Positions 1 to 7,319 of a stretch of 35,594 nucleotides of DNA are shown here, in pieces. Position 1 is the first letter of the stretch, and every line of letters starts with the position of its first letter. The translations under genes and the position numbers were made by a program. The stretch spans positions 1 to 35,594 of the forward strand of contig JAKALS010000002.1 of assembly GCA_021813145.1 (NCBI GenBank), read 5' to 3'. This stretch comes from a bacterium (GTDB taxonomy: Bacteria > Patescibacteriota > Microgenomatia > Levybacterales > UBA12049). The notes beneath the pieces were generated by a model, which was given only the letters and a program-made list of their open reading frames with translations, had not been told where the DNA came from and did no database searches.

Positions 1-263
1 GAAACGTAATAAAATACTTTTTTAATTAAGAGTTCTTTCTTTTCCTTTTCGGATTTCTTATGAAAACGAAAAAACCTCATAAGTTATCGAAAGAAGCTAT
101 CAGCAGAACCTGCGGTTTTGAGTGGGCCTCATCACTCTAAAATTGATTTTATCACATATTAAGTAGTTGTAAAGTACACGGGGTTCACTTAACCGCAGAA
201 AAAGTTGCAAGACTTGATCCATACAAGATAAGAGCAACTCCTGTAAATCAAGAAGCTGCAGAA
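1..263. other. Upstream region of the DGR-like gene, no complete gene seen
   Basis: No convincing gene is seen. A 26-codon ORF runs from an ATG at 60 to a TAA at 138 and is probably chance. From 147 to 263 the frame of the next gene is open and reads like protein (for example LTAEKVARLDPYKIRATP), but it has no ATG, GTG or TTG, so the gene below may have lost its natural 5' end. A hairpin GAGTG/CACTC lies at 120-137. A longer imperfect inverted repeat pairs 111-124 with 186-197 (TGCGGTT with AACCGCA, AGTG with CACT). Confidence 0.4.
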
Positions 264-1100
264 ATGCTTAAGGAAGAAGTCGATGAAACAAAAGTCGATA
301 ATACTAGAGCAGCTAAAAGCCATGAATTTTATGAACTTTCTGGCTACTTGGAAGCTCAAGAGATTATGGGTGATGATTTCTTTGGTCTAGATGAAGTAGA
401 AAATGCTTTGGGGTATACACTTGACAGAAGTTCAACGCCCGGAATTCCCTTTACAAGAGAAGAATTAGAACAGGCAAGAGCCAACAATGAATTTCTTATT
501 CTATACGCTTCTCACTCCACTCACAATGAACCGATAACCATGCAAAGACTTAATCTTAATTCAAAGCCTGCTACTACTCCAGGAGCAGGAAAGATTTTAT
601 ACGATACCAGTTGGTATAAAGATGAAGAGTTTTTTACCTCAGAACATCCAAGACTTGGCTGGAAACTCGTTACTAAAGACGTTATTCCTGATTCAATAAG
701 CAAAGACTATTTTAATCAAACTCAAACTATCGTTGACAATCTTCAAGGCCTAGCTACGATACCTCCTGAATACGAAGAAGCATTTAGCGAATGGGACGAT
801 CAGAAAGCAGAAATTAACGGACTTATGTTAACAAACTGGCAAGAAGCCGCCAGAAGACTAGAAGCGCTTAAGGTTAATGATATGTTTCGCCAAACGCCGG
901 TTGAAGCGTTATACGCAAATCTGGTTTATTCTCAAATAAAAGGACAACGCTTAATGGAAGGGACGTATACCTGGACAAACACCCCCTCTTCCAATGGCAG
1001 CCTGGTCTTCGTTGGCGGCTTTGATTCTGGGGGTGCGGGCGTGTACAACTGGGAGCCTGACGATGCCGATGACGATGTTGGCGTCGCGCTTTCCCGATAG
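264..1100 (+). CDS. Hypothetical protein with a DGR-type variable C-terminus (candidate target protein)
   Basis: 278 residues from the first available ATG. The first 210 or so residues are acidic and helical, and I do not recognise a family. The last 45 or so residues (TYTW...LVFVGGFDSGGAGVYNWEPD...DVGVALSR, ending at the stop) resemble the C-type-lectin-like ends of target proteins of diversity-generating retroelements, which are common in Candidate Phyla Radiation genomes. Base composition supports this: by hand count 981-1080 has 60 G+C and only 14 A per 100 bases, against 37 G+C and about 31 A at 301-400. Depletion of A is expected after adenine-specific mutagenic retrohoming. No reverse transcriptase or template repeat was recognised in the window, so they would have to lie to the left or elsewhere in the genome. 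The frame is open upstream without a start codon, so the gene may be truncated at its 5' end. The target-protein call is an inference from composition and motif style. Confidence 0.55.
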   Translation: MLKEEVDETKVDNTRAAKSHEFYELSGYLEAQEIMGDDFFGLDEVENALGYTLDRSSTPGIPFTREELEQARANNEFLILYASHSTHNEPITMQRLNLNSKPATTPGAGKILYDTSWYKDEEFFTSEHPRLGWKLVTKDVIPDSISKDYFNQTQTIVDNLQGLATIPPEYEEAFSEWDDQKAEINGLMLTNWQEAARRLEALKVNDMFRQTPVEALYANLVYSQIKGQRLMEGTYTWTNTPSSNGSLVFVGGFDSGGAGVYNWEPDDADDDVGVALSR

Positions 1101-1111
1101 TTTCAAAACAC

Positions 1112-1141
1112 AAAAGGCTCTCAAGAAATCGGGAGCCTTTT
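1112..1141 (+). terminator. Hairpin just after the variable region
   Basis: An 11-base-pair stem (AAAAGGCTCTC with GGGAGCCTTTT, one G-T pair) and an 8-base loop begin 11 bases after the stop codon and end in a short T run. It would serve as a rho-independent terminator. DGR target genes also often carry a hairpin just downstream of the variable region that helps mutagenic homing, so both readings are open. Confidence 0.6.
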
Positions 1142-1151
1142 GAAATTATGC

Positions 1152-4188: not shown

Positions 4189-5475
4189 ATGGAGACCAAA
4201 TCAGTGGAAATAATTCATGACGATCCTGCCGAGCGAGCGGAAATTGAAATCCTTAGAGATTATACTCAGGTTCAAGGAGAAGATTCCCCCGTAATCTTGG
4301 TTAATCCTGCACACGGAAATGAACCGTATATTTTAGGAACTGCAATAGCAAAAGGCGTGAGCGACAGATTAGCTCATCAAGGCTTGGGAAGAGCAAAAAT
4401 TGTTGTTCCGCTTCTCTATGGAGACAGACAAAAAAGAATTCTTATGGAAGAAAATCCTGATGCAACAGGATTAATCCATTACGATGAGGAATTTGGGGAA
4501 ATATTACGAGATGTTACTTTTCAAAACGGAAATTTTTCCCAACACTTAACTCAAATTAACAAGCATTATGATGAGGTGCAGAGAATGTTAAAGCAAAGGT
4601 TTTCTATTGACGCAGAAAACTTTTCAACAAGAAATCTTGGAAGCAACGAAATACAAATATTTAGTCCGAGAAATGTTATTGCAACTGTTGACACTGCCTC
4701 AAGGGTAATGGTTGACGCTCCTCAAAGATACTTTGCGTTTCCTCTTTTGATTTCTGAGTTATTAAAGGAAACCCGGAAAGCCGAGTTAGGTTTTAGCGAT
4801 GCGGATTTGGCTGCTTTGATAGAAAAAATGTTAAGAGTTGAAAGCGGTTATTCCCAGGTATTTATTCCGAAGATTAATCCGCTTTCTTATCGATATTCAG
4901 AGGATCTCTTACAGCAACCGACAGAGGTTGATGGAAGAGATAGGGTATATACGCCTGCAATGAAAAAAGATTTTCAACGGAGTCAGGGAAAGATAAACGA
5001 GCCGGGAATTTATGTAATGTTTAGCGGAACCGGGAGTATTGCAGAGACCACCAATAAATTAATAGACGCTGCGGCGCAGGGCGGATTGAAAGTTTACACG
5101 AATAAAGAGGTGGAAGGATCAACGCCTGTTTCGCTCGATGTTTTAACAGATGAAAACATTTTGGCGGTTTTAGGAAGAGCGGGCTGGGGTACGGGCTGGC
5201 AGGTCCAAAACCTCGCGCTTCCCTGGTTTGTGGCTCCCTATGAAACAGGGGATGACCCTGAGATCTACTTTAACAATAAAACTATTGAGGCTCTGAAAAT
5301 AGGAAAAATCCTAACAGATTCGGATATGTCTCCCAAAAGGCTAAGAGAGGTAATCAGTGATTTTTCCGTAGGAATGCAGGGAATAAATCAAAGAATTGAA
5401 GATGAATTCGGAACTTTAAATGGAATAGATTTTATAGCTGACGCGATAGCCTCCGATTTTTTGGCAAAAAAATAA
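4189..5475 (+). CDS. GT-B-fold glycosyltransferase-like protein, substrate unknown
   Basis: 428 residues, soluble, with no signal peptide. The N-terminal half has a Rossmann-like opening VILVNPAHGNEPYILGTAIAK (about residues 35-55). The C-terminal half has the pattern of the GT28/MurG and GT1 nucleotide-sugar domain: YVMFSGTGSIAETTNKLID, then a hydrophobic strand and GRAGWGTGWQVQNLALPWF, then PYETGDDPEIYFNNKTIEAL. In the known families the G-rich loop and the following D/E-containing stretch hold the nucleotide sugar. I infer a glycosyltransferase or a relative, but the usual HxGG-type N-terminal motif is only partly present. It stands alone with a promoter touching its start and is convergent with typA, 8 bases apart. 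Confidence 0.55.
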   Translation: METKSVEIIHDDPAERAEIEILRDYTQVQGEDSPVILVNPAHGNEPYILGTAIAKGVSDRLAHQGLGRAKIVVPLLYGDRQKRILMEENPDATGLIHYDEEFGEILRDVTFQNGNFSQHLTQINKHYDEVQRMLKQRFSIDAENFSTRNLGSNEIQIFSPRNVIATVDTASRVMVDAPQRYFAFPLLISELLKETRKAELGFSDADLAALIEKMLRVESGYSQVFIPKINPLSYRYSEDLLQQPTEVDGRDRVYTPAMKKDFQRSQGKINEPGIYVMFSGTGSIAETTNKLIDAAAQGGLKVYTNKEVEGSTPVSLDVLTDENILAVLGRAGWGTGWQVQNLALPWFVAPYETGDDPEIYFNNKTIEALKIGKILTDSDMSPKRLREVISDFSVGMQGINQRIEDEFGTLNGIDFIADAIASDFLAKK

Positions 5476-5483
5476 ACGGATTT

Positions 5484-7319
5484 CTATCTTGAATCTCTTT
5501 CATGCCGCACTCTATCAAGATGGCTTAGGTATTTTTTTCTAAGTCTTAGATTTTTAGGAGTTACTTCCAATAACTCGTCGTCTTCTATAAAATCAATGCT
5601 TTCCTCAAGACTCATAATAGTTGCAGGTGTCAACGCTCCCAAATGTACGTCTGCCGTAGAGGCTCTCATATTCGTCTGCTTTTTTTCCTTTGTGACGTTA
5701 ATTTCTATGTCGTCCTGCCTTGAGTTTTCTCCTACTATCATCCCTTCGTAAACAGGTGTTCCCGGTTCGATAAAAGTAATTCCTCTCCCCTGTGCGTTGT
5801 TCAGTCCGTATTTAAGAGCATTTCCCCCTTCGGATGCTATCAGTACCCCGTTTCTAAGTTTCGCTATTGCGGGAGTCATGGGTTCATAATCAAAAAACTC
5901 TACATTTACTATTGCGGTTCCCTTGGTATTTGTCATTAAATCGTTTCTTATTCCGAAAAGATTTTTGGAAGGTATTTTATAAACAAATCTCGTGTTTCCG
6001 TTTCCTTCGGAATGCATATCCATCATTTCCCCTTTTCTTTTTCCCATTTCCGAAGTTATGATCCCTACAAATTCGTCGGGAACGTCTATCATCGCTGTCT
6101 CTACTGGTTCCATAGTTACTCCTTCTACGGTTTTTGTAATAACCTGAGGCTTTTCCACCTGGAATTCGTACCCCTCCCTCCTTAATGTTTCTATAAGAAT
6201 TGAGAGATGAAGTTCTCCCCTTCCTGAGACAACCATTCTTTCTCCGTTTTTTTCCAGCCTTAAGCTTATATTTGTTTCGAGTTCTTTAGTAAGCCTTTCT
6301 TCTATTTGTCTAGAATTTGTGAACTTTCCTTCTTTTCCTGCAAAAGGAGAAGTATTTGCGGATATCGCTATCTTAATAGTAGGCTCTTCGACAGTGATTC
6401 TTGGAAGCGCTTCGGGGTTTGAAGAATCGGCAATTGTATCCCCTATTGCAACTTGCGGAAATCCCGTGATATCTATTATGTCTCCGTCGAATGCTTCCTC
6501 TACGTCTATTTTTTTAAGACCGTAACTCACTCTTATGCTTTCCGCTTTTCCGATTATTTTTCCTCCCTTTTCATTAATTAACATAAGACTTTGCCCTTTT
6601 TTAACGGAACCTCTCTTTATCTTTCCTATTGCATGCTTTCCTTTATGGGTGTCGTAATCGAGGGCGCTTACAAGCATTTGAAAAGTTCCTTCTTCGGTTA
6701 ACGGCGCTGGAATAAAAGAAATTATTTCTTCCAGTATCGGCTCAAGATTTGTGCTTTTTTCCACGTCTTCAGGGTTTTTTGCCGCTTTTCCTTCCCGTCC
6801 TATTGCATAAAAAACCGGAAAATCAAGCTGGTCGTGATGAGTGGCGAGCTCAAGAAACAGATCGTTAGTTGCTTCAAGTGTTTTATTTATGTCCGCAAGC
6901 CTTTTATCGATTTTATTTATTACTACAATAATTTTTAAATTCTGATCCAGCGCTTTTTTAAGAACGAATTTTGTCTGGGGCATTGGGCCTTCCTGCGCAT
7001 CTATTATAAGAAGGGCGCCGTCTGCCATATTTAATGTTCTTTCAACTTCCCCGGAAAAATCGGCGTGTCCGGGCGTATCAATAATATTTATTTTGCGGTT
7101 TTTATAATAAATAGCGGTATTCTTGGCAAGAATCGTTATTCCCCTTTCTCTTTCCAAAGGGTTGGAGTCGAGTATAGTAGTCTGCTGCATTTCCGCCTCG
7201 TTTTCGCGAAATGTATGTGACTGCTTTAACATAAAATCTACAAGAGTCGTTTTTCCGTGGTCTACGTGGGCTATAACGGCAACATTTCTTATATTTTCGG
7301 AACGGAATTCGTTATTCAT
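5484..7319 (-). CDS. typA: Ribosome-associated GTPase TypA/BipA
   Basis: 611 residues from the ATG at 7319, giving MNNEFRSENIRNVAVIAHVD, which matches the family's usual start. A TTG at 7349 would add 10 atypical residues. G1 is AHVDHGKTT, G2 is in RERGITI, G3 is DTPGHAD and G4 is NKID. These are followed by a beta-barrel domain, two alpha/beta domains like those of EF-G, and the BipA-specific C-terminus (ALTPATIMSLEESIDFIEDDELLEVTP). TypA binds the 70S ribosome at the EF-G site and helps 50S assembly and growth under stress or cold. Length and motifs are complete. It is a single gene. Confidence 0.95.
   Translation of the reverse strand: MNNEFRSENIRNVAVIAHVDHGKTTLVDFMLKQSHTFRENEAEMQQTTILDSNPLERERGITILAKNTAIYYKNRKINIIDTPGHADFSGEVERTLNMADGALLIIDAQEGPMPQTKFVLKKALDQNLKIIVVINKIDKRLADINKTLEATNDLFLELATHHDQLDFPVFYAIGREGKAAKNPEDVEKSTNLEPILEEIISFIPAPLTEEGTFQMLVSALDYDTHKGKHAIGKIKRGSVKKGQSLMLINEKGGKIIGKAESIRVSYGLKKIDVEEAFDGDIIDITGFPQVAIGDTIADSSNPEALPRITVEEPTIKIAISANTSPFAGKEGKFTNSRQIEERLTKELETNISLRLEKNGERMVVSGRGELHLSILIETLRREGYEFQVEKPQVITKTVEGVTMEPVETAMIDVPDEFVGIITSEMGKRKGEMMDMHSEGNGNTRFVYKIPSKNLFGIRNDLMTNTKGTAIVNVEFFDYEPMTPAIAKLRNGVLIASEGGNALKYGLNNAQGRGITFIEPGTPVYEGMIVGENSRQDDIEINVTKEKKQTNMRASTADVHLGALTPATIMSLEESIDFIEDDELLEVTPKNLRLRKKYLSHLDRVRHERDSR

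Follow-up and report, generated by a model that had tools for sequence, protein, structure and literature searches.

A 5'-truncated relic of an AAA-CLec DGR target with a template-type tail in a Patescibacteria genome

The truncated target gene and its 5' boundary

The window analysed here is the first 35.6 kb (35,594 nucleotides) of contig C5 of a 954-kb genome, which is assembled in six contigs, is rated 100% complete and has its nearest database relatives among the Patescibacteria (CPR). The open reading frame 264-1100 on the plus strand ends in ...GVYNWEPDDADDDVGVALSR*; both the frame and the C-terminal motif are exactly as an earlier note on this DNA had described them. Comparison with homologous targets of related genomes extends the remnant gene to 183-1100 (+), free of stops and frameshifts and made up of the end of an AAA-target linker and a complete target domain, with 34-49% identity to the targets in L004, L005, G071 and G095. 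The homology thus begins at about position 183, upstream of ATG 264. The frame is open from nucleotide 147 (stop at 144-146) but reaches a start codon only at ATG 264, with no in-frame ATG, GTG or TTG before it; the product from this ATG, if translated, has 278 amino acids.

When the 878-residue MoxR-fused target of G062 is used as a query, the match covers residues 598-878 only and starts at window nucleotide 183, placing at 174-183 the junction where the homology begins and the AAA part is missing. The same query detected no AAA part elsewhere in the genome at E<=1, a search that a divergent MoxR could escape, and none of the window reading frames beside the target gene encodes a vWA partner. 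On the minus strand, at 84-145, a divergent gene has an aptamer resembling the fluoride riboswitch (Rfam RF01734, E 7e-7 in a 300-base search); the score of 30.6 bits is below the curated cut-off of 34, though the alignment is good. It is preceded by a promoter-like TTTACA-N16-TAAAAT at 173-146 of the same strand, and the gene that would be under its control, MRFFRFHKKSEKEKKELLIKKVFYYV..., runs off the contig start. This leader forms the 5' boundary of the truncated target. Because the riboswitch and promoter sit directly upstream on the other strand, the N-terminal part is missing from the chromosome here and is not merely cut by the contig end. The AAA+ (MoxR) half usual in such targets is gone, and a divergent fluoride-riboswitch promoter region stands in its place.

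Searches of viral contigs, phages and plasmids gave no homolog of the target, and neither Pfam, PADLOC nor NCBIfam recognised it. Positions 1-200 were also considered as an insertion-sequence end and rejected: they are not repeated in this genome or its relatives, and Rfam assigns them the fluoride riboswitch leader.

Homologous targets in related genomes

About a dozen genomes from the class, together with two GTDB contigs, carry homologous targets. In G071 the target, an antisense reverse transcriptase (RT), bAvd and a template repeat (TR) lie inside 2.4 kb. G083 carries a large partner gene, two targets, MoxR, RT, bAvd and a TR, the partner being called vWA-like on the basis of where it lies and of motifs in its sequence, with no Pfam match; RT and bAvd of the relatives' DGRs were identified by Pfam. 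The changes from TR to variable region (VR) in these systems fall almost entirely on template adenines: 21/30 A vs 1/84 non-A positions in G071, and 24/31 vs 1/83 and 18/31 vs 0/83 for the two VRs of G083. This 1.1-Mb genome (locus L018) has six DGR-type RT matches.

G062, G051 and L004 have the target fused with an AAA+ domain of MoxR type, and in all three a vWA- or CobT-like gene adjoins it. In G095 (L020, contig C35, 4247-6706) it is joined instead to a ClpB-like AAA+ (PF07724 plus D2-small). In L004 a second copy of the N-terminal part of the target (the two lie at 2092-2811 and 5285-5644), identical over a stretch, sits after the CobT-like vWA gene, and the contig ends within the copy. 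An IS630-type transposase splits the vWA gene upstream of the MoxR-fused orphan target of G062 (L019, contig C2, 10309-13322). Stand-alone targets of about 260-282 amino acids occur in G083 and G315, beside separate MoxR and vWA-like genes.

Decay is common in this target family. Targets persist in G062 and G095, two genomes in which no DGR RT was detected; the RT of G051 is interrupted by stops; and L112 (G220, contig C4, 344-466) is a lone template repeat followed by its terminator, the 8 kb examined there containing no RT. In L106 (G387, contig C23, 5115-5318 and 5391-6524) the target, its VR-type hairpin kept, stands beside an RT of which only the last 68 residues are left; this locus represents an intermediate step in the decay.

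The variable region

The 38 codons at 984-1097 (+) are collinear with the relatives' template repeats, which align to the window without gaps. The window's own template being gone, changes were counted against the templates of relatives, at sites with the same base in all templates compared. Against three templates, 15 of the 24 invariant adenines are changed but only 3 of the 46 invariant non-adenines (Fisher p=8.9e-7); adding a fourth, A-rich repeat gives 12/20 against 1/36 (p=2.4e-6). In the control comparison of template with template, adenine is the better-conserved class, with 10-28% of adenines and 22-44% of other bases changed. Measured against the relatives' templates, the C-terminal changes are therefore concentrated at template adenines, as in a DGR target. 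The VR thus bears the mark of adenine-specific mutagenesis despite its lost template. This sequence comparison identifies 984-1097 as a DGR variable region, situated at the 3' end of a gene for a C-type-lectin-like target, and both the VR and the adenine-specific mutagenesis proposed in the earlier note are borne out. A VR without its retroelement can thus be recognised through comparison with relatives' templates.

The base composition agrees with the counts given previously, which are exact: 60 G+C and 14 A at 981-1080, 37 G+C and 31 A at 301-400. Of the 113-nucleotide stretches in the window, 0.4% are as A-poor as the VR and 0.2% as G+C-rich, the latter being the VR itself and a tRNA cluster at 2.7 kb.

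Fold and function of the target domain

The region 348-1097 (+) was modelled by AlphaFold2 as a C-type-lectin-like (CLec) variable-protein domain, with pLDDT 85.7 and pTM 0.83 from an alignment of 14 sequences; an earlier model with eight sequences was poor (pLDDT 63). The best VIA-align match of the model is TvpA of Treponema denticola (2y3c, Z 8.6, 166 residues, 4.0 A), and Mtd of phage BPP-1 belongs to the same fold class at Z of about 7 (variants 6.7-7.0), the rest of the list being made up of FGE-family proteins. Identity to TvpA and Mtd is 10-14%, and, in contrast to them, the window model has a long helical insert. Foldseek alone gave weak matches, and a profile search of PDB sequences with the target gave nothing credible. 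The nanoarchaeal variable protein AvpA is not among the structural matches listed, which has no bearing either way. The predicted model supports a CLec fold around the VR.

By analogy with systems described in PMC7159879 and PMC10907252, the variable CLec domain of the relatives presumably binds a ligand and signals to MoxR/vWA. With the AAA+ part missing, the window product, if made, would be a single frozen binding domain.

The downstream tail

The 3' end of the VR, at 1092-1104 (+), is the IMH*-like CCCGATAGTTTC, which includes the stop codon and has CGA as in the relatives' TRs, where their VRs have CGG. It is followed at 1111-1142 (+) by a terminator-type hairpin, CAAAAGGCTCTC-AAGAAATC-GGGAGCCTTTTG, with a 12-bp stem and an 8-nucleotide loop (fold -18.8 kcal/mol, z -5.5). 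The TRs of G071, G083 and G220 continue with TTTC, about ten nucleotides and then a terminator, and the window tail likewise reads CGATAGTTTC plus the terminator. The 61-nucleotide tail scored 35-37 against these TR flanks (0/300 shuffles), the only three close ones that entered the comparison, and 14-19 against eight VR flanks. Its total to the three TR flanks is 108, compared with at most 84 for 35 other terminator-like hairpins of the same genome, each given the first ten bases of the window tail before scoring.

The four VRs of G071, G083 (two) and G387 all have a hairpin of the type CCCGC-GNN-GCGGG, with a 3-nucleotide loop, at +36 to +42, which is lacking in the window and in all three TRs; within 140 nucleotides downstream of the window VR there is no G+C hairpin with a loop of 3-5 nucleotides. 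The relatives' VR hairpins resemble the GRA-loop hairpins of nanoarchaeal DGRs (PMC4372165) and are likewise comparable to the hairpin/cruciform that BPP-1 needs (PMC3240598). Judged by these alignments, the tail is TR-like and not VR-like, and the hairpin is a TR-type terminator rather than a DGR target-site hairpin. The hairpin noticed earlier is thus real, but is not the DGR feature it was taken for.

Neither element identifies a TR flank alone. In RT-bearing DGRs with GA in the TR before the stop position, the VR has GG or GC. The orphan targets of G062 and G095, whose tails are VR-like or of other kinds, likewise end in CGATAG, so the CGA base alone is not diagnostic; the orphan targets L110 and L113 have terminator-like hairpins downstream, so neither is a terminator by itself. 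Across L033-L036, L042, L052 and L058 the TR often ends in GATAG (or GAAG) and the VR in GGTAG, a recurrent single-base IMH*/IMH mark.

Missing retroelement

Neither RVT_1 nor, with a close DGR RT as query, any DGR RT was found in the genome; the same kind of query detects RT in 29 of 188 relatives. No bAvd (PF22296) was detected, and G071 and G083 exceed the cut-off. A second VR/TR copy is absent by both DNA and protein comparison, the VR matching only itself, and an adenine-tolerant VR pattern with up to three further mismatches gave no template match in the genome. The template search succeeded on the control loci L017 and L018, and its protein route recovered the TRs of G071 and G083. The RT and repeat that the note had not recognised in the window are therefore absent, with bAvd, from the whole assembled genome, and the window also lacks the VR-type 3' signals of a complete, active DGR, namely an IMH distinct from IMH* and a downstream G+C hairpin with a short loop; with six contigs, unassembled sequence is possible. 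The target is accordingly not serviceable from elsewhere in the assembled genome, as the note had suggested it could be. The second genome of the genus, G001, lacks both the target and a DGR RT; synteny with it ends at window position 1779, and the G001 contig begins near there.

Comparison with known systems

It has already been published that most DGR targets in CPR bacteria consist of a CLec domain joined to an AAA ATPase (Paul et al. 2017, as presented in PMC10907252), and CPR clade 2 DGRs are treated in PMC8144416. The window target shares the C-terminal variable CLec domain of these proteins, which in the relatives carry MoxR-type (in G095 ClpB-like) AAA+ fusions and in G071 and G083 belong to DGRs with RT and bAvd. 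It differs in having no AAA part, RT, bAvd or TR, and in a VR joined to a TR-type tail. MoxR-vWA pairs with DGRs were described as ternary conflict systems (PMC7159879; PMC10907252). Similar pairs are formed by the MoxR-fused target and a vWA- or CobT-like protein in L004, G062 and G051, and in G083 and G315 by MoxR and a large partner gene that lie next to the target, whereas the window has neither MoxR nor any such neighbour. In the classic system the CLec domain is mostly fused to the vWA protein, while in the CPR relatives it is fused or adjacent to MoxR. The incomplete and remote DGR loci of Thiohalocapsa PB-PSB1 (PMC10907252) likewise have targets separated from RT and/or TR, but that organism has a matching TR, either at another site or in structural variants that are intact, and none was found in the window genome.

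Origin of the locus

The locus belongs to a known kind, the AAA-CLec DGR targets of CPR, of which it is a frozen relic truncated at the 5' end, with an unusual scar. A TR-like tail after a VR is most simply accounted for by recombination between VR and TR at their shared 3' end. In the ancestor, a DGR reverse transcriptase with bAvd would have copied the TR transcript while randomising adenines, and the mutated cDNA would have taken the place of the VR in the 3' end of the gene for an AAA+ (MoxR)-CLec target, the elements lying in the order target, antisense RT, bAvd and TR that relatives still have. VR and TR would then have recombined within their shared unmutated 3' end (about 1075-1096), a crossover that would delete RT, bAvd and the TR body and join the last VR to the terminator downstream of the TR. 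A separate event would have taken the AAA+ half, leaving the CLec target domain alone beside the divergent fluoride-riboswitch gene. We consider it probable that the target was stranded by such a recombination and lost its AAA+ half separately; the recombination as the source of the tail, and the order of events, we infer. The earlier idea of a split locus came close, in that the machinery was lost, but a VR-TR crossover plus a separate 5' truncation is favoured over a split with the retroelement kept elsewhere. Against this account, the window stop is TAG, where the three closest TRs have CAG or AAG; TAG is what VRs have, and many other TRs of the family show it too, in GATAG. A simple single crossover would thus require either that the TR had TAG or that one mutation followed.

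If the retroelement was lost by whatever route, the frozen VR might have been exapted as a fixed binding protein, a stand-alone CLec protein of 278 residues starting at ATG 264. The intact frame, the stand-alone targets of G083 and G315 and the targets retained in G062 and G095 speak for this. We nevertheless regard it as unlikely: ATG 264 lies inside the AAA-target linker homology with no designed start upstream, the genome yielded no MoxR partner (a divergent one could escape), and G001 has no homolog. The product is now probably a frozen, decaying protein. Decay is likelier than use, although a frame intact over about 300 codons may mean that the protein is functional and leaves exaptation possible.

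Continued diversification in trans, with the RT and TR either left out of the assembly or residing on a mobile element or in another cell, would fit the intact VR, the division of the genome into six contigs and the precedent of Thiohalocapsa (PMC10907252); it is nonetheless improbable, as an assembly rated 100% complete contains neither RT nor bAvd nor TR, and as the TR-like tail, without the VR-type hairpin, leaves the site no recipient marks. An assembler jumping from a genuine VR to a TR flank, with RT and bAvd left in an unbinned contig, would have had some 20 shared nucleotides at the joint to work with, on a contig that begins at window nucleotide 1. Elsewhere in the assembly, contig ends share overlaps of 126-127 bases, suggestive of a graph of 127 bases; because this far exceeds the stretch shared by VR and TR, such an artefact is equally improbable, and the bin holds no loose RT, while the 5' truncation is likewise internal to the contig. 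That the C-terminus is simply the G+C-rich end of an ordinary protein agrees with a genome devoid of RT and TR, but is hardly credible given that it is homologous to proven DGR targets and to templates whose differences are adenine-specific, and given the predicted CLec fold.

A VR-TR crossover as the origin of the tail has a wider bearing. DGRs can perhaps destroy themselves in this way, excising RT and Avd and leaving a frozen target with a TR terminator, and we tentatively put this forward as a general route to orphan CPR targets; our literature search found no report of VR-TR recombination or of loss of the retroelement. The route is testable, and if it was taken here, the ancestral TR flank would read AAAAGGCTCTC..GGGAGCCTTTT. 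If such recombination is common, many orphan DGR targets would be frozen snapshots rather than remotely served genes, which would alter the way DGR activity is tallied in the small genomes of symbionts.
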